A DNA stretch of 64,000 bases, from the NCBI GenBank assembly GCA_900469955.1, contig UBYX01000002.1, positions 193-64,192 of the forward strand. Direction: 5' to 3'. Each line of letters starts with the position of its first letter. Positions within the stretch are counted from its first letter, which is position 1. Shown piece by piece: positions 2,421 to 22,150 of this stretch. The translations under genes were made by a program, and so were the position numbers. The notes under the pieces were generated by a model. That model was not told where the DNA came from. It saw nothing but the letters and a program-made list of their open reading frames with translations, and did not search any database. Source of the stretch: Hyphomicrobiales bacterium (GTDB lineage Bacteria > Pseudomonadota > Alphaproteobacteria > Rhizobiales > Rhizobiaceae).

Positions 2421-3485
2421 TCATTTGAAGATTTCTTTCGCCTTCCCCAGCATCTCGTTCTGTCGGCGCGAGTCGCTTGTGCCGTAGAGTTTGGCCTCAG
2501 AAATCGCCTTGATGTCGGCCGGCAATCCTTCGGTTACGCCGTCGATCACCGGTCCATAACCGAGGCTGGCATAGATCTTCTGTGCAGTCGGTCCCTGGAG
2601 GAAGTCGAGATAGAGCTTGGCGGCATTCGGATGCGGCGCCTTCTTCAGAAGCACGTTGCCGTAGAGAACGTAACCGACGCCCTCCTCCGGTACGATGAAC
2701 TTCACCGGCAGTCCCTTCAAGTCCGACATATCAGTGAGAATGACGGGCATATAGATCGAATATTCCCCACGCGCGGTGCGGCGCTGGGATTCCCGCTGGT
2801 CGCGGGTAAAGACGAGCTTCTGACCCGCGACCTTCCTGAGGTAATCCTCGCCGATCCGGTCATGGGTGGAGAAAAACCACAGGTAACCGGCCCCGATCGC
2901 CCGCGGGTCGTCCGCGAGGATCTTGCCCTGCCATTTTGGATCGGCAAGATCCTTCCAGCTCTTGGGTTCATCGGCCGGCTTGACGAGCCCGGTATTGATC
3001 ATGATGCCATAGGGGATGGTCATGACCGACGCCATCGGCACCTGAAGCTTGAACTGCGGCTTGATCTTCTGGGAATTCGGCGTCACCGGAAGCGGATCGA
3101 TGGACTTGTCCTCGGCGTCGTAAAGCCGCGTCTGCCCCTCGCTGGTGAACATCACGTCCGCCGCAAAACGGCCCGCTGCCTGCTCGACGCGTACGCGCTC
3201 ACGGATTTCGCTGGCGCGAGCTTCCAGAACCTCGACGGAAATTCCATATTCCTCGGTGAAGGCTTTGGCGATCTTCTTGGTGCTCGGCTGCCCGACGAGT
3301 GCGGTGTAGAGGACGAGAGTCCCCTCTTTCTTGCCCGCCTCGACCACCTTCTCCCATTCGGCATCCTGTGCCTGCACCGGCTGCCATACCGCCGTTGCAA
3401 TGGCGATGCCGCCCGCAGCGGTCAGAAAAAGCCGCCTCGACCATTGTCTTATGGTCGCCGCCGTCATGGATTTGTTGCTCGTCAC
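2421..3485 (-). CDS. ABC transporter extracellular solute-binding protein, FbpA-like, Tat-type signal
   Basis: A 354-residue periplasmic binding protein for the downstream permease and ATPase. I start it at GTG 3485, which has a GGGAGGAG site 8 bases upstream; the longer in-frame ATG at 3533 lacks this. The N-terminus carries a twin-arginine motif (SRRLFLT, R17-R18) and a hydrophobic stretch ending near AQA, so export folded through Tat is likely. The mature part begins with QDAEWEKVVEAGKKEG, closely like the second binding protein at 10028-11047, so the two are paralogues flanking the amidohydrolase operon. The family binds ferric ions, polyamines, phosphonates or small acids; ligand unknown. 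Confidence 0.92.
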   Translation of the reverse strand: MTSNKSMTAATIRQWSRRLFLTAAGGIAIATAVWQPVQAQDAEWEKVVEAGKKEGTLVLYTALVGQPSTKKIAKAFTEEYGISVEVLEARASEIRERVRVEQAAGRFAADVMFTSEGQTRLYDAEDKSIDPLPVTPNSQKIKPQFKLQVPMASVMTIPYGIMINTGLVKPADEPKSWKDLADPKWQGKILADDPRAIGAGYLWFFSTHDRIGEDYLRKVAGQKLVFTRDQRESQRRTARGEYSIYMPVILTDMSDLKGLPVKFIVPEEGVGYVLYGNVLLKKAPHPNAAKLYLDFLQGPTAQKIYASLGYGPVIDGVTEGLPADIKAISEAKLYGTSDSRRQNEMLGKAKEIFK

Positions 3486-3997
3486 GTGTCTCTCCTCCCT
3501 GGAACTGACGACTGAGCGCAATCGCGGGGCCATGCCCCGCTTTCGATTTCGAATTATATGCGGCTCGAGCGCCGCCCTCTCCTACTCCGCTTCGGTGGCA
3601 CCGTTTTCCCGAGCGGCACCGCCGGATTCTCCCGACGTTCATCTATCTTGGAAGATGATCCTTACTGGTTCCTATATCCTCGCGATATGAGGCTCGTTTT
3701 GGGTGTGACAAGGACCCCTGATATGCGCCGTGCGACACGGCGCCAGAAGGTTTGCCCTCCCAAGGGTCAGGTTCGCCAAACAAAACTCCTGCTCTTCGAG
3801 CTCCACCTACCCCGCGGGCTCGAACGAGCACAACAGCGCCTTCGCAAGCGAAACTTCCTCCATTGTTAGATTGACCTTTTCCCTCGCAGGGGAAAAGCAT
3901 CATTTTTTTACATTCACTTTTCTCGAAAGCAGAAAGATGAAGTGTGTTAGGGTCACCCAGGATTTGACCATAGCGCTGGGTTGGGAGGCCTAAAGCA
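3486..3997. other. 512-bp divergent intergenic region
   Basis: Lies between the minus-strand binding-protein gene and the plus-strand lysR. I see no convincing coding sequence: a 124-codon minus-strand reading frame crosses it and enters lysR but has no ribosome site and no family-like content. It holds a hairpin-like inverted repeat (TTTTCCC at 3877-3883 and GGGAAAA at 3890-3896) and, at 3919-3935, the candidate LysR site annotated separately. It must carry promoters for both directions; no -10/-35 pair is clear enough to call. Confidence 0.6.
3919..3935. promoter_or_regulatory. Candidate LysR-type operator upstream of lysR
   Basis: The 17-base sequence has arms TTTCTCG and GCAGAAA around AAA, giving T-N11-A spacing inside an imperfect palindrome. 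Its left arm is identical to that of the perfect palindrome at 4948-4964. It lies 63 bp before the lysR start, where autoregulatory LysR sites normally sit. Inference from spacing and recurrence; not proven. Confidence 0.5.
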
Positions 3998-4903
3998 TTG
4001 GACACACTCATCAACATCCGTACTTTTCTCGCGGTCGCCCGCTCCGGAAGCTTCTCTGCGGCTGGCCGTCATCTGGGAGTCGCACCCTCGGTGGTCACCA
4101 AACGGATCAGCCGGCTGGAGGACCAGATGCGGGTAAAACTGTTTATCCGGTCGACGCGCCAACTCATCCTGACCGAGGTGGGAGAACGCTACCTCCCGCG
4201 CTATCAGTCACTGGTGAAGGAAATCGATGATGCCATCGGCGGCGCAGCCGCGGTCGCTCAGCGAATAGAGGGGCATTTGCGCATCAAGGCCCCGACAACG
4301 GTGACGATTGCCTTTCTGGCGCGGATTCTGAGCGATTTTCAGCAGGAGAACCCCAACGTGACGATGGATGTCGCGCTGGTGGACCGCTCGGTCAATCCGG
4401 CCGAAGAGGGATACGACATTGCGCTTGGCGCACTTCCGGCCTCCTACTCCAACGTGGTCGATGAACCGCTCTGTCCCTATCCCCGCAAACTCTGTGCCGC
4501 TCCATCTTATCTGGAAAGCCACGGTGTCCCGAAACACCCGCGCGATCTCGTCGATCACATCTGCCTCACCTTTCATGCCACCGGATCAACTTGGTCGTTC
4601 CTCAGTCCCGGCGGACCGATCGACGTGGAGGTCCGCTCCGCCTTCAGCGCCAACGACACCCAGGTGCTGCATGACTTGGCCTTGCGCGGTCGCGGCATCG
4701 CCATGGTGGCGACCTATGTCGCGGAAGATTCGTTTCGGACGGGAAAACTGATCGAACTGCTGCCGGAATATCCCGTCGCCGAGCTTTGGTTGAAGGCGCT
4801 GATCCCGCAAACGCAGGCGCGCAAACCGACCGTGAGAGCCGTCATGGAATGGCTTCGGGTTCATATGCCCACCGCGCACCTTCTCGGCCAAAAATCCGCA
4901 TAA
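3998..4903 (+). CDS. LysR family transcriptional regulator
   Basis: 301 residues with an N-terminal winged helix-turn-helix (about 1-60; core FSAAGRHLGVAPSVVTKRIS) and a C-terminal periplasmic-binding-like effector domain (about 90-295). It starts at TTG 3998 with GGGAGG upstream. LysR proteins usually need a small-molecule co-inducer, commonly a pathway intermediate of the operon they control. It lies between the ABC importer genes (divergent) and the four-amidohydrolase operon (same direction), and matching T-N11-A palindromes occur before its own start and before that operon. It is therefore the likely regulator of both, with the imported compound or a derivative as effector (inference). 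Confidence 0.93.
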   Translation: MDTLINIRTFLAVARSGSFSAAGRHLGVAPSVVTKRISRLEDQMRVKLFIRSTRQLILTEVGERYLPRYQSLVKEIDDAIGGAAAVAQRIEGHLRIKAPTTVTIAFLARILSDFQQENPNVTMDVALVDRSVNPAEEGYDIALGALPASYSNVVDEPLCPYPRKLCAAPSYLESHGVPKHPRDLVDHICLTFHATGSTWSFLSPGGPIDVEVRSAFSANDTQVLHDLALRGRGIAMVATYVAEDSFRTGKLIELLPEYPVAELWLKALIPQTQARKPTVRAVMEWLRVHMPTAHLLGQKSA

Positions 4904-5141: not shown

Positions 5142-6227
5142 GTGGACACTGCTGTCACCAGGCAGCGCCCGGTGCTTTCGCAATTGGGCGCAATCGACTG
5201 TGACGTTCACCCCGATGCGCCGCAACGCTCCGACCTCCTGCCCTATTTTGACGACTACTGGAAAGAGATCGTCACCACTCGAGACGTGGATCGGCTGGAA
5301 CTCACCAATTTCCCCACCCGGACTAAACCGTTCTTCCGGGAGGACTGGAAGGCGTCGAGAGGCGGTGGCGTCGAAAAGCTGCGCCGCAATCTGCTCGATC
5401 CCTTCGGCCTCAAATACGCGATCCTGAACTGCGTCACCGGCGTGCATGCGATCTACGATCCCTATCTGGCAGCCGCTGTGTGCCGCGCCACCAACGATTG
5501 GCTGAAGGCGGAATGGCTGGACCGGGATCCAAGGCTGCGCGCCTCTCTGGTGCTCCCGATGCAAAATCCGGAAGCCGCCGTGGAAGAGATCGGGCGCTTT
5601 GCGGACGACCGGCGTTTCGTCCAGGTCCTCACCCTCTGTATGGGCGAGATGCCCCTTGGCCGCCGCTATTACTGGCCGATCTACGAGGCCGCCCAGCGCC
5701 ACGGTTTCTCGCTCGGCATTCACGCAGGCAGCGCCTATCGCCACGCCCCTAGCCAGAGCGGATTCCTTTCCTATCTCGCCGAAGACTATGTGCACCAAGT
5801 TCAAGGCTTCGCGGCCCAGGTCGGCAGCTTCGTCGCAGAAGGCGTGCTCGGCAAATTCCCCGACATGAAGATCGTGCTGATCGAATCCGGCGTTTCATGG
5901 CTCCCCGGCCAGATGTGGCGGATGAGCAAGGACTGGCGCGGCGCGCGCATTGAAGTGCCGTGGGTCAAGGAGCCACCATCTGCACTGGTTAGGCGCCAGA
6001 TCCGCATGACGACGCAGCCCTTCGACGCGCCGCGCGACCCGGCTGAACTGGAGCGCATTATCGAACATCTCGACGCGGACGACATGCTGCTTTTTTCCAC
6101 CGACTATCCACATGCGCAATTTGAGGGCGACGCCGCGATCCCCGAGGGTTTCCCCGAACGCCTCATCGATCGTCTGGTGCGGGAGAACGCGCTCGCTACC
6201 TATCCACGACTGGAGGACCGGCCATGA
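5142..6227 (+). CDS. Amidohydrolase family 2 protein, A-type copy 1
   Basis: 361 residues, a TIM-barrel metal hydrolase/decarboxylase of the ACMSD-related amidohydrolase-2 family. The GTG at 5142 is chosen because AGGGAGG lies 8 bases upstream and the length then matches the three sister proteins; the in-frame TTG at 5061 adds 27 residues of poor sequence. Metal-site residues visible: DCDVHP (D21, H23; the usual HxH is DxH here), the strand-end histidine in GIHAGS, and the aspartate in FSTDYPH near the C-terminus. It is most like the third gene (7343-8464), sharing an LLPYxxxYW segment and a DW-K-x-(E/S) segment. First gene of the operon; it overlaps the next by ATGA. Members hydrolyse or decarboxylate ring-cleavage products or lactones; the substrate is unknown. 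Confidence 0.92.
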   Translation: MDTAVTRQRPVLSQLGAIDCDVHPDAPQRSDLLPYFDDYWKEIVTTRDVDRLELTNFPTRTKPFFREDWKASRGGGVEKLRRNLLDPFGLKYAILNCVTGVHAIYDPYLAAAVCRATNDWLKAEWLDRDPRLRASLVLPMQNPEAAVEEIGRFADDRRFVQVLTLCMGEMPLGRRYYWPIYEAAQRHGFSLGIHAGSAYRHAPSQSGFLSYLAEDYVHQVQGFAAQVGSFVAEGVLGKFPDMKIVLIESGVSWLPGQMWRMSKDWRGARIEVPWVKEPPSALVRRQIRMTTQPFDAPRDPAELERIIEHLDADDMLLFSTDYPHAQFEGDAAIPEGFPERLIDRLVRENALATYPRLEDRP

Positions 6228-7327
6228 ATCAAGCTGTTCTCGAAAAGGAAAAAAACGCCGAAGCCAAACTCGGGATCGTCGACTGCGATATCCATCCGGC
6301 CTTCGGCACCCCGAATGAGCTTGCGAAATTTCTGCCGCAGCGCTGGCGCGATCACTTGGCGGATTATGGCCAGCGGAGCGCCAATCCGCTGGTCGGCACC
6401 CTGCCCTACCCGCGCATGACGCCCGGCAACGGCATGCGCCGCGACGCCTGGCCTCCGAATGGCGGGCCGCCGGCCTCCGATCTTGCCTATCTGCAGGAAC
6501 AACTCCTTGATCCGCTCGGCATCGAATACGGGATCCTTCAGCCGCTCGCCGCCGGGTCCTCCACCCTCAATCAAGACCTGGGCGCCGCCATGTGCGCTGC
6601 GGTCAACGATTGGCAGCTCGACAAATGGACGGGTCCGGAACCTCGCCTCAAAGCCTCCATTTCCGTTGCCCAGGAAGACGCAGCCGCAGCGATCGCCGAG
6701 ATCGAAGCACGCATCGGCGACAGGAGCTTCGTGCAGATCGCCATCCCGCCACGAACCATCGAGCCGGCCGGCCGGCGGCGCTATTGGCCGATCTACGAAG
6801 CCGCCGAACATTACGACATGCCGATCGGCATGCATTCTGCCGCCTTCGGCTGGCACACCAACAGTGGCGCCGGCTGGCTGAATTTCTATATCGAGGAACA
6901 CTACGCCTTCTCGCACAGTCTGCAGAGCGTCGTGACCAGCATGGTTTTCGAAGGCGTTTTCGAACGTTTTCCCAAATTGAAGCTGATTGTCGTCGAAGGC
7001 GGTTTTGCCTGGGCGGCGCCGTTGATGTGGCGGCTCGACAAGCAGTGGGAGCGGATGCGTTCCGAAGTTCCGCATGTGAAGCGGCCGCCGTCCGAATATA
7101 TCCGCGAGAACGTCTGGTTCACCACCCAGCCGATCGAGGAGCCGGAAAACAATCGTCACCTGCTCGATACGTTGCGATGGGTGGGAGCCGACCGGCTGAT
7201 GTTCTCGACGGATTATCCCCACTGGGATTTCGACGACCCGCGCTACGCCTTCAAGGTGCCGCTGTCGCCGACGGAACGCCAGCAGATCTTTCGCGAAAAC
7301 GCAAAACAGGTCTACCGCCTGCCTTGA
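6224..7327 (+). CDS. Amidohydrolase family 2 protein, B-type copy 1
   Basis: 367 residues, overlapping the previous gene by ATGA. The DCDIHP metal motif, the histidine in GMHSAAFGWH, the EGGFAW segment and FSTDYPHWDFDDP are all present, so the active site looks complete. It belongs to a distinct B subtype: QRWRDHL near the start, WPPNGGPPASD near residue 80 and HVKRPPSEYIREN near 285 are shared with the fourth gene but not with the A-type genes. An A protein and a B protein made from overlapping genes in fixed order suggest a heteromeric enzyme or two consecutive steps (inference). No signal peptide; cytoplasmic. Confidence 0.92.
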   Translation: MNQAVLEKEKNAEAKLGIVDCDIHPAFGTPNELAKFLPQRWRDHLADYGQRSANPLVGTLPYPRMTPGNGMRRDAWPPNGGPPASDLAYLQEQLLDPLGIEYGILQPLAAGSSTLNQDLGAAMCAAVNDWQLDKWTGPEPRLKASISVAQEDAAAAIAEIEARIGDRSFVQIAIPPRTIEPAGRRRYWPIYEAAEHYDMPIGMHSAAFGWHTNSGAGWLNFYIEEHYAFSHSLQSVVTSMVFEGVFERFPKLKLIVVEGGFAWAAPLMWRLDKQWERMRSEVPHVKRPPSEYIRENVWFTTQPIEEPENNRHLLDTLRWVGADRLMFSTDYPHWDFDDPRYAFKVPLSPTERQQIFRENAKQVYRLP

Positions 7328-7342
7328 TACGGGAGTGCCCTC

Positions 7343-8464
7343 ATGAATGAGATGATCCGATCATTGGAGAACAAGCCGGGGCTTTCGACCGTCGGCGGCA
7401 TAGACTGCGACCTCCATCCGGCATCCCCGGCGACGAAGACGCTGCTTCCCTACCTCGAGGAATATTGGCGCGAGACTTTCGTCATGCGTGGCGTCGATCG
7501 CTTGAGCCTCGCAATGACCTCCTCGCCGTCACGGGCGCCAATCAATGTGCGCTCCGACTGGAAGGCCGAGAGCGGCTTTGCCGGCGATACGCTGGAGGCG
7601 GTTCGCACCCAGGCACTCGATCCGTTCGGCACTCGACTGGCGATCTGCAATGTCCTGCACGGCTCGATGATCATGCATTCCGACGATATGGCCGCAGCCC
7701 TCTGCGGCGCCGTCAACGAATGGCTGGCCAGGGAATGGCTCGACCGGGAACCGCGGCTGCGGGGTTCGATCATCGTTTCCGCCCAGAATTCGGACCTTGC
7801 GGTCGCCGAGATCGAAAAACGCGCCGCAGACCACCGTTTCGTGCAGGTCCTGATCCTCGCCCAGAACGACGAGCCGCTCGGTCGCCGGCGCTACTGGCCG
7901 ATCTACGAGGCAGCCGCCCGCAACAAGCTGCCGCTCTGTATCCATGCCGGCGGCAGCAACCGCCATGCGCCCACCGCCACCGGCTGGCCGAGCTATTTCG
8001 TCGAGTCCTATGTGGCGCAGGCATCGATTTTCGAAAGCCAGTTGTTGAGCCTTGTCGCCGAGGGCGTCTTTCACAAGGTGCCGGACCTCAAGGTGGTCTT
8101 CGCCGAAAGCGGCTTTACATGGCTGCCGTCCTTCTTCTGGCGGGCTGACAAGACCTGGCGCGGCGTGCGCGCCGAAACGCCATGGCTGACGGAGCAGCCG
8201 AGCGATATCGTCAAGCGTCATGTCCGCTTCACGCTCCATCCCGTCGATGCGCCGGACCAGGACGCACTTGCCCGCACTCTCGAACACATTGATTGCGACG
8301 ACATCCTGCTCTTCTCGACCGATTATCCGCATGCCCAGTTCGATGGCTTGAACGCGCTCCCGGCCGCCTTCGGCGAGACGCTTGCGAAAAAGATCCTGAT
8401 CGACAACCCGCTTGCCACCTATCCGCGGATCGCTGCGGATTTTCAGAAGGAGGTCGCGAAATGA
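7343..8464 (+). CDS. Amidohydrolase family 2 protein, A-type copy 2
   Basis: 373 residues, same A subtype as the first amidohydrolase. It shares TLLPYLEEYWRE near the start, the RSDWKAESG segment, CIHAGGSNRHAP and LFSTDYPHAQFDG. DCDLHP and the FSTDYPH aspartate keep the metal site intact. It follows the first B gene by 15 bp and overlaps the second B gene by ATGA, as the first A gene does with its B partner. The arrangement is what tandem duplication of an A-B pair would give. Protein divergence from copy 1 is considerable, so the duplication is old or the second pair was acquired. Confidence 0.92.
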   Translation: MNEMIRSLENKPGLSTVGGIDCDLHPASPATKTLLPYLEEYWRETFVMRGVDRLSLAMTSSPSRAPINVRSDWKAESGFAGDTLEAVRTQALDPFGTRLAICNVLHGSMIMHSDDMAAALCGAVNEWLAREWLDREPRLRGSIIVSAQNSDLAVAEIEKRAADHRFVQVLILAQNDEPLGRRRYWPIYEAAARNKLPLCIHAGGSNRHAPTATGWPSYFVESYVAQASIFESQLLSLVAEGVFHKVPDLKVVFAESGFTWLPSFFWRADKTWRGVRAETPWLTEQPSDIVKRHVRFTLHPVDAPDQDALARTLEHIDCDDILLFSTDYPHAQFDGLNALPAAFGETLAKKILIDNPLATYPRIAADFQKEVAK

Positions 8465-9567
8465 CGGAAACCGGCACTCTGGAACGCCCGGTCGAGACGA
8501 AGACCAAATACAATCTGATAGACTGCGACATTCATCCGGCGATGAGAACGCCAGCCGAGATGCAGCCTTACCTCGCGCAGCGCTGGAAGGATCATCTCGC
8601 AACCTATGGCGGCCATACGCGCCAGGGGTTGTCGGAAACGCTCTCCCATCCGCGCATGGTGCCGGAAGTCTCGCGCGTCGATTCGTGGCCGCCGTCGGGC
8701 GGCCCGCCGGGTTCCGACCTGCCCTTTCTGTGCGAACAGCATCTCGACAACCTCGGCATCGACCTTGGCGTCCTCGTGCCGCTGCGCTTCAATGCCAGCG
8801 GCCAGCGCCACCCGGACTTCGCCAGCGCGATCGCCACGGCCATCAATGATTGGCAGGTAGGCAAGTTTTTGGATCCGGAACCGCGTCTGCGCGGCTCGAT
8901 CATCGCCACGCAGGAAGATCCGGCCAATGCCGTCGCCGAGATCGACCGCCGCGCCTCGGACAAACGCTTCGTGCAGGTCCTCCTGCCGCCACGCTCCATC
9001 GAGCCTTTGGGAAAACGCCGCCACTGGCCTATCTTCGAGGCCGCCATTAGCCATGGGCTGCCGCTATCGCTGCATGTCGGCGGCGTCGGGGGGCACCAGG
9101 CGACCGGCGCCGGCTGGCCTTCCTATTATCTCGAGGAGCATCACAGCCAGGTGCAGACCATGCAGGCGGTGATCGCAAGCCTCATCTTCGAGGGCGTCTT
9201 CGAGCATTTCCCGGAACTGAAGGTTTCCTTCGTCGAAGGCGGCTTCTCCTGGGTACCGTCGTTTGGCTGGCGCATGGACAAGGCCTGGCAAGCGATGCGC
9301 GACGAGGTCCCGCATGTGAAACGCCCGCCGTCCGAATATCTGCGCCAGAACATCTGGTTCACCACCCAGCCGATGGAGGAGCCGAACCCGGCGAAAAACC
9401 TCACCGATACGTTGAACTGGATCGGTACCGACCGGCTGATGTTCTCGACCGACTATCCCCACTGGGATTTCGACGATCCCCGCTACGCCTTCAAGGTGCC
9501 GCTCAGCGCAGCCGAAAAGGCGGCGATCTTCGCCGGAAATGCTGTCAACTTCTATGGATTGAACTGA
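8461..9567 (+). CDS. Amidohydrolase family 2 protein, B-type copy 2
   Basis: 368 residues from the ATG at 8461, which overlaps the upstream stop (ATGA). A longer in-frame start at 8293 would lie inside the third gene and is rejected. B-subtype features match the second gene: QRWKDHLATYG, WPPSGGPPGSD, HVKRPPSEYLRQN and FSTDYPHWDFDDP. DCDIHP and the central histidine (LSLHVGGVGGH) keep the metal ligands. It is followed 2 bp later by the Rieske gene, so all five are translationally linked. The reaction is unknown. Confidence 0.92.
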   Translation: MTETGTLERPVETKTKYNLIDCDIHPAMRTPAEMQPYLAQRWKDHLATYGGHTRQGLSETLSHPRMVPEVSRVDSWPPSGGPPGSDLPFLCEQHLDNLGIDLGVLVPLRFNASGQRHPDFASAIATAINDWQVGKFLDPEPRLRGSIIATQEDPANAVAEIDRRASDKRFVQVLLPPRSIEPLGKRRHWPIFEAAISHGLPLSLHVGGVGGHQATGAGWPSYYLEEHHSQVQTMQAVIASLIFEGVFEHFPELKVSFVEGGFSWVPSFGWRMDKAWQAMRDEVPHVKRPPSEYLRQNIWFTTQPMEEPNPAKNLTDTLNWIGTDRLMFSTDYPHWDFDDPRYAFKVPLSAAEKAAIFAGNAVNFYGLN

Positions 9568-9569
9568 GA

Positions 9570-9983
9570 ATGGCTCGTCACGTCGTTGCCAGGGTCGATG
9601 AACTCGATATCGGCAAATCCAAACTGGTGAAGGTCGCCGGCCGCGACATCGCCCTCTTCAACGTCAAGGGCGAATTCTTCGCCATCGCCAACCGGTGCCC
9701 GCACGAGGGCGCCGATCTCTGCCGCGGCCAGGTCGTGGGCCTCGCCGAATCCGACGAACCCGGCCAATACCGGATGACGCGGCACGGCGAACTGGTGCGC
9801 TGCCCGTGGCACGGCTGGGAATTCGACATCCGCACGGGAAAGTCCTGGTGCGATCCGGCCCGCACCCGCGTCAAGAGTTTCGATGTTTCCGTTACGAAAG
9901 GCGGAGCGCTCGCGGAAGGTCCCTACCAAGCGGAAACTTTTCCGGTCTCCATCGATGAGGACTACGTCGTGGTGGAGATCTGA
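9570..9983 (+). CDS. Stand-alone Rieske [2Fe-2S] protein
   Basis: 137 residues with both halves of the Rieske cluster site: C43-P-H45 and C78-P-W-H81. It has no membrane segment and no oxygenase catalytic domain, and there is no mononuclear-iron oxygenase subunit or reductase in the window. It may be a ferredoxin donating electrons to an oxygenase encoded elsewhere, or part of a complex with the amidohydrolases. The insert between the two motifs (about 32 residues) is longer than in typical NirD or BphF-type ferredoxins. It is 2 bp after the fourth amidohydrolase and 44 bp before the second binding protein, so it is part of the same transcript. Confidence 0.9.
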   Translation: MARHVVARVDELDIGKSKLVKVAGRDIALFNVKGEFFAIANRCPHEGADLCRGQVVGLAESDEPGQYRMTRHGELVRCPWHGWEFDIRTGKSWCDPARTRVKSFDVSVTKGGALAEGPYQAETFPVSIDEDYVVVEI

Positions 9984-10027: not shown

Positions 10028-11047
10028 ATGTCGCTTATCCGTAAATTGGCAGCCTTTGCGGTTGCCGCGGTCATTGCAGGTCCGGTTTTCGCGCAGGATG
10101 CGGAGTGGGACAAGGTCGTGGAGGCCGCCAAGAAGGAAGGCACCGTCACCGTCTACAATTCGCAGCTCGGCGCACCGAACTTCGTGGCGGTGACCGAGTC
10201 CTTCCAGAAAAAATACGGCATCAAGGTCGAGTCGCTCGATGTGCGCGCCAGCGAACTGACCGAGCGGCTCCGCTCCGAGCAGGCGGCGGGACGTTATCTG
10301 GCCGACATCCAGATGCACTCCGCCAATTCGATCGAAACGGGCAAGACGCAAGGCATTCTGGTCGAACCTCTCGGCAAGATACCGAACGTCGCCAATATCC
10401 GCGACGACATGAAAAAAGAGGTCACGGCCGATCATGTGCCCGGCTTCCTGCAGGCTTACGGTATCTTGGTCAATACCGGCCTCGTGAAGCCGGAGGACGA
10501 ACCGAAGAGCTGGAAGGACCTCGCCGACCCGAAGTGGAAGGGCAAGATCCTGTCCGACGACATGCGCCCGCTGGGTTCAGGCGGAACCATGTTCGTGGTC
10601 TTCAACAAGACCTACGGACAGGCCTTCAACGAGAAGCTCGCGGAGAACAAGCCGGTCTTCAGCCGCGACCTGCGCAACGACGCCCGTCGCGTCGCCCGCG
10701 GCGAGTATCCCGTCTACATCCCGCAGATGTTCGCCTTCGCCAATGACCTTAAAGGGCTGCCGATCAAGGTGATCGTGCCCGAGGAAGGTGTACCCTATGT
10801 TTCGATCCACTTCGCGATCATGAAGAACGCGCCGCATCCCAATGCCGCCAAGCTCTTCATCAACCACTTCCTCGACATGGAGCAGCAAGTCACCTACGCC
10901 AAGGCGTGGATGTTGCCCGTCGCCAAGGGCGTCGAGGATCAGCTCGATCCGGAATCAAGGCGCTTTGCGAGTGCCAAGCTACTCGGCACCCGTGAAATGA
11001 ACGAATACGGCCCGCTGATGGAGTTGGCCAAGAAAATCTATCCCTGA
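10028..11047 (+). CDS. ABC transporter extracellular solute-binding protein, paralogue of 2421-3485
   Basis: 339 residues with a Sec signal (MSLIRKLAAFAVAAVIAG, cleavage after VFA) and a mature start QDAEWDKVVEAAKKEG nearly identical in pattern to the binding protein of the divergent transporter. Further shared stretches are RASELTERLRSEQAAGR, GLVKPEDEPKSWKDLADP and VIVPEEGV(P/G)YV. It is the last gene of the amidohydrolase operon and is followed by a strong terminator. No permease or ATPase accompanies it. The simplest reading is that both binding proteins feed the one permease at 580-2346, widening its substrate range (inference). Start ATG follows GGGAGGAG. Confidence 0.93.
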   Translation: MSLIRKLAAFAVAAVIAGPVFAQDAEWDKVVEAAKKEGTVTVYNSQLGAPNFVAVTESFQKKYGIKVESLDVRASELTERLRSEQAAGRYLADIQMHSANSIETGKTQGILVEPLGKIPNVANIRDDMKKEVTADHVPGFLQAYGILVNTGLVKPEDEPKSWKDLADPKWKGKILSDDMRPLGSGGTMFVVFNKTYGQAFNEKLAENKPVFSRDLRNDARRVARGEYPVYIPQMFAFANDLKGLPIKVIVPEEGVPYVSIHFAIMKNAPHPNAAKLFINHFLDMEQQVTYAKAWMLPVAKGVEDQLDPESRRFASAKLLGTREMNEYGPLMELAKKIYP

Positions 11048-11066: not shown

Positions 11067-11101
11067 GCCCCGGCGGCACGGTCTGCCGCCGGGGCCTTTT
11101 T
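11067..11101 (+). terminator. Rho-independent terminator of the amidohydrolase operon
   Basis: Perfect 12-bp GC-rich stem (GCCCCGGCGGCA with TGCCGCCGGGGC), 5-base loop, then CTTTTT, 20 bp after the stop codon of the second binding protein. Confidence 0.9.
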
Positions 11102-20593: not shown

Positions 20594-22150
20594 TCAGAAG
20601 CCCTTTTCGTTCAGCCAGTTCCGGATGCTTTCCTCATCCGCACGCTCGAGTGCATGACCGGCTTCAATCTGCCTTGACGTAACGTCAGCCTTGGCTGCGA
20701 CGAGCCGGTTTTCCAGTTCTGCGGTATAGGAAGCGTAGAGATCCTGGGCCGCGCTGACGGAGAGCACTTGCGTACCGGAGAGATCGACCACCGGCCGCTC
20801 TTCCAGCACGTTCATCGGCCTAAGCAGCGCCACCTTTTGGACCACGCCCGGATGAAGCTGCATGAGCGCACCCAGCATGTTCGCGCCGTTGGAATAACCT
20901 ATGAATGCGGTCCGCGCCGGATCGACGCCGTAGGCCGGCCCGATGTCCTCCGCAAAGGCTGCGAACGCTTCGGCCTCGGAGAGAATGTCCTTCTGGTCGA
21001 ATGTCATCATGCTCAGGCGCCGGAAGAAGCGGGCTATACCCTCCTCGGTCGCTCGGCCTCGCACGCCGATCAACACGGCATTCGGCCCCACCTTCCGTCC
21101 GAGCGGCAAAAGGTCGGTCTCGCTGCCGCCGCTGCCATGCAACAGCACCAGCGTCGAACCGTCGGGCTCATCCGGCATGTGGATCCGGTGTACGAACGAC
21201 AGGTCGCGATAGGTGATCCGCTCCTCTCCCGGCAGGCCGAACTGTGGAAGCATGACCCGAAGGTCGTCGTGATCGATCTTGAAATGTGCCGGAATGAAAA
21301 GCTTCGTCCCGAGGCTCTCCACCGGCTCGTCGATGGCAAAACCGGGGCCGTCGGCCGCAAGTTCGATCAGCGTCCCGGATGGTTCCCGCACATAGAGCGA
21401 ATAGAAATAGTGCCGGTCGTGCACGTTCATCTCGCCGCTGTTTTCCGCTTCCAGCGTCGAATGCACCGCCTCCACCTGTGCCCGGTCGGACGCCCGGAAA
21501 GCGATATGGTCGATCGTTCCGGTCCCCGGAGCGGCGGTCCAGAAGCCGCCGGCGTCACGGACATCGACGATGTCCTGCGCATCCGAGACGAGCCGCTGGA
21601 TATTGCCCTCCTTCGGGCCGAGCGTAAGCCCCATGTGACGCGTGAGGAAATCCGCGGTCGCCTCGGGCTTCTCCGAGAGGATCGTCGCGCCACGCAGCCT
21701 GCGGATCGCATCCGCCTCGGCAATACCGCCGTCGGCCCACCAGATCCAGGGCGAGGTTTCCTCGACCCCGACCAGCTTCACTATAATGCCGTCCGGATCC
21801 GTCAGCCGCAGGACCGGTTCACCGAATTCCTGTGTCGGGCCGCTGAGTTTGACATTGTACTGCAGCGCCCGCGTCAGCCAGAAACCGATTGCGTCCGGCG
21901 CGATCGAAAAGCTGATTTCGCTCGGAGCCCCATGGCCCACTCGACCGAGCGATCCATCTTCCCAGGCGAGAAACGTCACCAGCGAGCCCGGAGAGGCGCC
22001 ACCGTCACCGTAAAACAGGTGGAGTTGCTGCGCGTCTTCGAATCCGGCTGTCCGCTTCACGAGCCTCAACCCGAGGAAACCCACATAGAAATCGACATTC
22101 GCCTGGATCTTGCGGGTTATGGCTGTGACGTGATGAAGGCCGCTGGTCAC
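20594..22150 (-). CDS. Fusion of VOC ring-cleaving dioxygenase (MhqO/PcpA-like) and alpha/beta hydrolase (MhqD-like)
   Basis: 518 residues in two parts. Residues 1-310 are a four-module VOC dioxygenase with a His-His-Glu iron site: HHVT (H6/H7), IDHIAF (H215) and GTLIEL (E263), as in hydroquinone 1,2-dioxygenases. Residues 330-518 are a small serine hydrolase with oxyanion motif LLHGSGG, nucleophile elbow GYSNGA (S420) and GHAL histidine (H499). In Bacillus the two functions are separate genes (mhqO, mhqD) induced by quinones. The fusion would cleave a (hydro)quinone ring and then hydrolyse a product or ester. Stop codon abuts the convergent aminotransferase stop, with no space between them. 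Confidence 0.88.
   Translation of the reverse strand: MTSGLHHVTAITRKIQANVDFYVGFLGLRLVKRTAGFEDAQQLHLFYGDGGASPGSLVTFLAWEDGSLGRVGHGAPSEISFSIAPDAIGFWLTRALQYNVKLSGPTQEFGEPVLRLTDPDGIIVKLVGVEETSPWIWWADGGIAEADAIRRLRGATILSEKPEATADFLTRHMGLTLGPKEGNIQRLVSDAQDIVDVRDAGGFWTAAPGTGTIDHIAFRASDRAQVEAVHSTLEAENSGEMNVHDRHYFYSLYVREPSGTLIELAADGPGFAIDEPVESLGTKLFIPAHFKIDHDDLRVMLPQFGLPGEERITYRDLSFVHRIHMPDEPDGSTLVLLHGSGGSETDLLPLGRKVGPNAVLIGVRGRATEEGIARFFRRLSMMTFDQKDILSEAEAFAAFAEDIGPAYGVDPARTAFIGYSNGANMLGALMQLHPGVVQKVALLRPMNVLEERPVVDLSGTQVLSVSAAQDLYASYTAELENRLVAAKADVTSRQIEAGHALERADEESIRNWLNEKGF

Follow-up and report, generated by a model that had tools for sequence, protein, structure and literature searches.

The 64,000-nt stretch analyzed here (the window) lies on contig UBYX01000002.1 (positions 193 to 64,192, forward strand) of a Hyphomicrobiales bacterium of the family Rhizobiaceae (GCA_900469955.1). 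It carries four consecutive genes, A1, B1, A2 and B2 (5142-9567), whose products all match the Pfam family Amidohydro_2 (PF04909, E-values of 1e-35 to 1e-46). We consider it likely that these genes encode two separate hydroxylases of the AibH1H2 type, which are served by one Rieske ferredoxin and by an importer with two solute-binding proteins (SBP1 and SBP2), and that A2, B2 and SBP2 constitute an added module. This view draws on observed features of the locus and its relatives: homology, the pattern of metal ligands, the pairing of A and B genes, the non-sister ancestry of the two pairs, the presence and absence of A2B2 with SBP2 among related genomes, and a scar at loci that lack the second pair.

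The order A1-B1-A2-B2 and the ATGA coupling within each pair, both proposed in an earlier sequence-only reading of the window, are confirmed by the open reading frames, and every sequence motif and metal residue quoted there is found in the genes. All four genes are on the forward strand. A1 (5142-6227, 361 amino acids, with a GTG start and a possible alternative start at TTG 5061) overlaps B1 (6224-7327, 367 amino acids) at 6224-6227, and A2 (7343-8464, 373 amino acids) overlaps B2 (8461-9567, 368 amino acids) at 8461-8464; 15 nt separate B1 from A2. The gene for a Rieske [2Fe-2S] ferredoxin (CPH...CPWH, AibG-like) follows B2 after 2 nt (9570-9983), and that for SBP2, an extracellular solute-binding protein, follows after a further 44 nt (10028-11047), both on the forward strand. 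Pairwise identity is 51% between A1 and A2, 54% between B1 and B2, and 33-42% between A and B proteins. A search of the bacterium’s own genome with B2 (E 0.001) recovered the four genes alone, and dN/dS for A1, B1, A2 and B2 ranged from 0.03 to 0.12 across five genome comparisons.

In a sequence search of the entire PDB, the top match was AibH1 for A1 (267 bits) and A2 (245 bits), and AibH2 for B1 (316 bits) and B2 (307 bits), with the AibH1 and AibH2 chains of the PDB entries told apart by their ligand residues. Other PDB members peak at 53 bits (A1, A2) and 61 bits (B1, B2), ceilings that leave aside AibH1H2, the amidohydrolase-related oxygenases (AROs) 8sm6-8sm9 and PtmU3, the last of which scores at most 73 bits. 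Over the aligned PDB rows, B1 and B2 are 45% and 41% identical to AibH2, and A1 is 38% identical to AibH1. The published accounts describe AibH1H2 as an alpha2-alpha'2 oxygenase in which the dinuclear Mn/Fe site belongs to H2, and H1 binds a single metal ion (PMC7782822, PMC10401708). The AibH2 ligands are D25, H27, H211, E265, D337 and H340; a further acid of H2, D342, lies two residues past the last His ligand and is absent from H1 (PMC7782822).

B1 and B2 retain all six of these ligands together with D342 (AibH2 numbering), and A1 and A2 retain the mononuclear ligands (D, H, H, E, D and H in A1), with Q replacing the D342 acid. The residues following DYPH discriminate the two types, A-Q in A and W-D in B, a feature that the earlier reading overlooked; the D after DYPHW in B is the mark of the second metal site. 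By homology, A is AibH1-like (alpha-prime subunit) and B is AibH2-like (predicted catalytic subunit), in correspondence with the two subunits of the heterotetrameric Mn/Fe 2-aminoisobutyrate (Aib) monooxygenase. The four proteins were originally termed ‘amidohydrolases’, but their homology is to oxygenase subunits of the AibH1/AibH2 type and does not indicate an undescribed type of hydrolase. Nor can it be maintained that no such system has been described, as AibH1H2 is known and its chains are the top PDB match of all four proteins.

For a broader comparison we took the best 80 of 524 relatives, which yielded 78 distinct loci, or 79 with the window. The relatives were scanned with two patterns, one of which was TDYPHWD (the A figures are not selected by it), and A, B and ferredoxin genes were counted from a six-frame scan; there are 84 A and 85 B genes, with one further A that is cut by a contig end and excluded from the ligand counts. 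An A gene resides directly upstream of each of the 85 B genes (in one case the truncated A), and the A-B junctions (n = 84) comprise 34 ATGA overlaps, 9 other overlaps and 41 gaps. Most of the fetched loci (73 of 78) have a single B gene. The six ligands are intact in 82 of the 84 A genes, where the residue at position 342 is Q in 49, H in 34 and R in 1, and is acidic in none. D occupies this position in 85 of 85 B genes, a figure biased at positions 337-342 by the scan motif. In the A subunits of two loci (L049, L074), Q and G stand where AibH2 has H211 and E265, and the H1 metal may be dispensable in these proteins.

A class-wide draw of 289 genomes, in which larger cases were limited to at most six scored candidates, gave six genomes (own included) that matched at 1e-50; leaving the own genome aside, all seven B genes of at least 48% identity are preceded by an A; a single match, of 37%, is solitary. 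The distance matrices of A and B are strongly correlated (r = 0.877, calculated for the 53 tree-set pairs), with none of 2000 permutations as high. The upstream A in 85 of 85 cases and this correlation lend good support to the suggestion, already made from the window’s sequence, of obligate A:B hetero-oligomers; A and B are two fixed classes, and very probably associate as partners. Exceptions are found on plasmids, for which 8 of the 247 matching records were examined. A Sulfitobacter plasmid (L114, 7203-9505) has B and Rieske genes right behind an IS5-like transposase gene, with no adjoining A, and relatives encoded by solitary genes beside a Rieske gene are present on Mesorhizobium and Rhodococcus plasmids.

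For the ancestry of the two pairs, we constructed a tree by a quick method from 118 rows, 112 of them taken from 53 chosen loci and six from the PDB (a weak row of L117 was dropped); several of its branches are long. A proteins occupy one side of a branch with a starred support value of 100 (54 rows, with AibH1 among them). Together with AibH2, 54 B rows (among them the one from Sulfitobacter) make up a single 55-row group (starred support of 95), from which five distant B-like rows are excluded, as are SfbO, 8sm7, 8sm8 and 8sm9. A1 and B1 are each recovered in a 20-row group beside pairs from Neorhizobium, Chelativorans and Rhodobacter kin, and A2 and B2 form six-row groups placed elsewhere on the tree. 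Forcing A1 and A2 into one clade costs 85 log units (approximately unbiased test, p-AU = 0.003), and forcing B1 and B2 together costs 62 log units (p-AU = 0.030, a weaker rejection). These values rule out an in-place tandem duplication. The duplication of a fixed A-B unit that was first envisaged therefore gives way to a different history, since A1 is not the sister of A2, nor B1 of B2, an outcome that the earlier reading had itself named as a refutation: two old units were apparently brought together. The ferredoxin clusters with the ferredoxins of A1B1-related loci (Shimodaira-Hasegawa-like approximate likelihood ratio test, 93, unstarred; 41 chosen ferredoxins), a placement suggesting that A2B2 was added to an operon already composed of A1B1 and ferredoxin genes. 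Multiple pairs are found in other genomes as well. Chelativorans sp. J32 (L043, 4811-11101) has an A-B-ferredoxin set and another A-B pair approximately 2 kb on, with the two pairs in different tree groups, and four A-B pairs of different subgroups occur in one genome (G067; Xaviernesmea oryzae L039, L046, L097).

Presence and absence within the genus separate the second pair from the first. We compared 57 genomes of the genus: a match at 1e-30 is found in 18 and the A1B1 locus in 16. A2B2 is present at the same place in nine of these 16 loci and missing from seven. Gene order is kept in the nine tandem loci, although in one of them (G001) the contig stops inside B1 and A1 is not visible. SBP2 is encoded in all nine loci with A2B2 and in none of the seven without it, the ferredoxin gene is present in 16 of 16, and the single-pair loci retain A1B1, ferredoxin, SBP1 and permease genes. 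In the fetched set of 78 loci, the named carriers of the tandem arrangement are Neorhizobium alkalisoli, N. huautlense, Rhizobium populisoli and Xaviernesmea oryzae. Ahead of the ferredoxin gene, the single-pair loci have a remnant of the 3'-end of B2, which scores higher than all 2000 shuffles in six of seven cases; one of the six barely passes (G071, 23 vs. 22), and the seventh fails (G063, with 2 of 2000 shuffles as high). The single control, a shorter (35 nt) gap between B and ferredoxin genes at L040, scored 11. Judged by eye, one type of junction is shared by six of the single-pair loci and another occurs in G076. Given this B2 3'-end match, we do not favor the idea that single-pair loci never had A2B2. 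A2B2 together with SBP2 behaves as a removable module in a locus of A1B1, ferredoxin and transporter genes.

The arrangement that we propose is as follows. A1:B1 and A2:B2 would be separate monooxygenase hydroxylases using a common Rieske ferredoxin, and both would be fed by a single ATP-binding cassette (ABC) importer core and its two solute-binding proteins. The dinuclear Mn/Fe (or diiron) site of B is predicted to activate O2 and to hydroxylate a small solute, taken up by the importer, at a C-H bond, with A as a required, non-catalytic partner holding one metal ion; electrons would pass from NAD(P)H to a reductase encoded elsewhere and then to the ferredoxin. A2B2 was presumably inserted behind B1 and ahead of the ferredoxin gene in a pre-existing A1B1-ferredoxin operon, as a later module with SBP2 for a second, probably related, substrate, and some lineages would since have lost it. 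The predicted parts of this scheme are the metal content, the oxygenation reaction, the formation of complexes, the sharing of ferredoxin and importer, the order of events and the assignment of substrates. A comparison of seven B1 with five B2 sequences identified 80 fixed differences, among them the loop past the central His ligand, which fits two substrates.

Several observations weigh against this scheme. The identity of A2 is 36.5% to AibH1 (~37% over PDB rows) and 37.9% to AibH2, so that A2 is placed with AibH1 by score, by the absent acid and by the tree; plain identity does not place it. The pattern of presence and absence reflects few events: the locus tree, which contains 15 of the 16 genus loci (G001 excluded), needs four changes, of which starred branches force three. 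Two tandem genomes, G077 and G079, are placed among single-pair ones, so that loss with regain, strain exchange or repeated loss must be invoked, and a history of nothing but losses from a single ancestor does not give the simplest count. The shuffle test on the remnant was devised post hoc and preserves base composition only. SBP2 might serve either pair. Eleven of the 78 fetched loci have no ferredoxin match, no AibF-like reductase was found among the six operon genes scanned, and reductase matches elsewhere in the genome are weak (35% and 32% identity). The A2 identities and the tandem genomes nested among single ones slightly reduce our confidence in the scheme. An adjacent reductase is no criterion for AROs in general, which were sought via a neighboring Rieske gene (PMC10811679).

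The two pairs could instead work in sequence on one substrate, for example by hydroxylating it twice in succession; SBP1 and SBP2 would then bind the initial compound and either an intermediate or a variant of it. The common run of genes, the single ferredoxin, the ATGA-coupled pairs and the shared importer genes would all suit such a pathway, but SBP2 tracks A2B2, and the single-pair loci have A1B1, ferredoxin, SBP1 and permease genes with no A2B2; an obligate second step is unlikely to vanish alone, although an optional one could, and we regard sequential action as rather improbable. The persistence of A1B1 without A2B2 in 7 of 16 genus loci also speaks against the obligate four-step path offered in the sequence-only reading, and two substrate ranges was the better of its two suggestions. 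The same loci, and the predominance of single B genes in the fetched set, make it very unlikely that A1B1 and A2B2 heterodimers combine in one four-subunit hydroxylase with two different dinuclear sites, even though AibH1H2 is an alpha2-alpha'2 tetramer (PMC7782822), so that a mixed tetramer is conceivable, and each gene of the four overlaps the next or lies 15 nt from it; if it were true, gain or loss of A2B2 and SBP2 would retune a single Mn/Fe oxygenase complex. That the four proteins are ordinary metal-dependent hydrolases or decarboxylases, as their PF04909 membership and the commoner monometallic zinc, non-redox chemistry of characterized members (PMC10401708) would allow, is extremely doubtful and is rejected on the PDB matches (245-316 bits to AibH1/AibH2 vs. 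at most 73 for PtmU3 and 61 for members outside the AROs), the dinuclear ligand set of B and the Rieske ferredoxin gene immediately downstream, as well as the placement of A and B in different tree groups.

Returning to the two-hydroxylase scheme, a Rieske ferredoxin is encoded in 67 of the 78 fetched loci. The ferredoxin of the window is 42% identical to that beside the A-B pair of R. pseudokoreensis, where the layout is A-B-Rieske-reductase. The operon probably ends at a terminator-like hairpin of 12 pairs followed by a T run (11067-11095, forward strand), identified by a consensus scan only, which returned 11 sites in the region vs. 7.6 expected. Upstream of A1 is a gene for a LysR-family regulator (3998-4903, forward strand), and beyond it, on the reverse strand, are genes for SBP1 (2421-3533), a solute-binding protein 46% identical to SBP2, a fused ABC permease (580-2346), and the N-terminal part of an ABC ATPase (1-506), cut by the window edge and a nearby contig end. 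The best models for the permease are sub-threshold and of the 2-aminoethylphosphonate, molybdate, sulfate and polyamine types. Those for the ATPase, permease and solute-binding proteins include 2-aminoethylphosphonate, iron, polyamine, sulfate and others, all below cut-off among the matches listed (25 of 186 for the ATPase), and no substrate is therefore assigned from the transporter type.

In relatives, the ABC ATPase gene is complete and is followed by a GntR regulator gene in some loci and then by one for a LigM-like demethylase, which is present after the ABC genes in 13 of the 13 loci reaching that far. The example from L045 scores 691 bits (cut-off 580) against NF047885, vanillate/3-O-methylgallate O-demethylase, and 609.5 bits against LigM (5tl4); a likely orthologue (91%) resides near the start of another contig of the bacterium’s own genome. 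From this neighborhood one may do no more than guess at a substrate that is small and imported, possibly bearing a methoxy or N-methyl group. Counterparts of the Aib catabolic enzymes AibA, C, D1 and E were not noticed among the neighbors, of which only some genes were scanned, with no search by name. Two loci (L085, L091) have A-B-ferredoxin followed by two sets of solute-binding protein and permease genes. In Neorhizobium petrolearium (L113, 5318-9107), an A1B1-related pair is found directly behind a GMC oxidoreductase gene, which may encode the enzyme that acts next on a hydroxylated product. Elsewhere in the window (20594-22150), a predicted protein has glyoxalase-type domain matches fused to an MhqD-like esterase region.

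The closest known system is AibH1H2-AibG-AibF, the 2-aminoisobutyrate monooxygenase of Rhodococcus wratislaviensis (PDB 6m1w, 6m2i, 8ful-8fuo; PMC7782822, PMC10401708). It shares with the window two PF04909 subunits in the same order, the same ligand pattern (mononuclear H1, dinuclear H2), an adjoining gene for a small Rieske ferredoxin and transport genes nearby. It differs in that the window has two diverged pairs by one ferredoxin gene, an operon without a reductase gene, ABC importer genes with two binding proteins where the Aib system has an amino-acid permease, and a LigM-like demethylase gene near the locus in relatives. At 37-45% identity to AibH1 and AibH2, the substrate need not be Aib. 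The single-protein dinuclear AROs (SfbO, 8sm6; 8sm7, 8sm8, 8sm9; PtmU3) resemble the catalytic B-type subunit; SfbO and the 8sm7-8sm9 proteins were chosen for a neighboring Rieske gene (PMC10811679). Unlike the A:B pairs, these and PtmU3 are reported as expressed as single proteins, with PtmU3 stated to be without a mononuclear partner (PMC10401708); PtmU3 is not among our tree rows. The LigM O-demethylase (NF047885; PDB 5tl4, 5x1i) resembles the product of the relatives’ neighboring gene, which is outside the four-gene set and whose function is predicted.

The AibH1H2 enzyme type is already known; what distinguishes the window is the presence of two diverged pairs of this type by one ferredoxin gene. 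Among titles and abstracts of the open-access literature, which does not cover supplements or subscription papers, we found none on two AibH1H2-type pairs in one operon, and ‘tandem’, ‘paralog’ and ‘duplicat’ are absent from the main text of two papers in the Journal of the American Chemical Society (PMC10401708, PMC10811679). According to the published accounts, no heteromeric oxygenase of this group other than AibH1H2 has a known substrate, and what H1 does is termed unsettled (PMC12141560, PMC10401708). The A-B type looks like one lineage of fixed gene order, and its recognition would help correct ‘amidohydrolase’ labels in databases. Because a single cell here has two naturally diverged A:B pairs beside one ferredoxin gene, swaps of A and B could reveal whether H1 has a part in specificity, and sister genomes with and without A2B2 and SBP2 may indicate the substrate of each pair.

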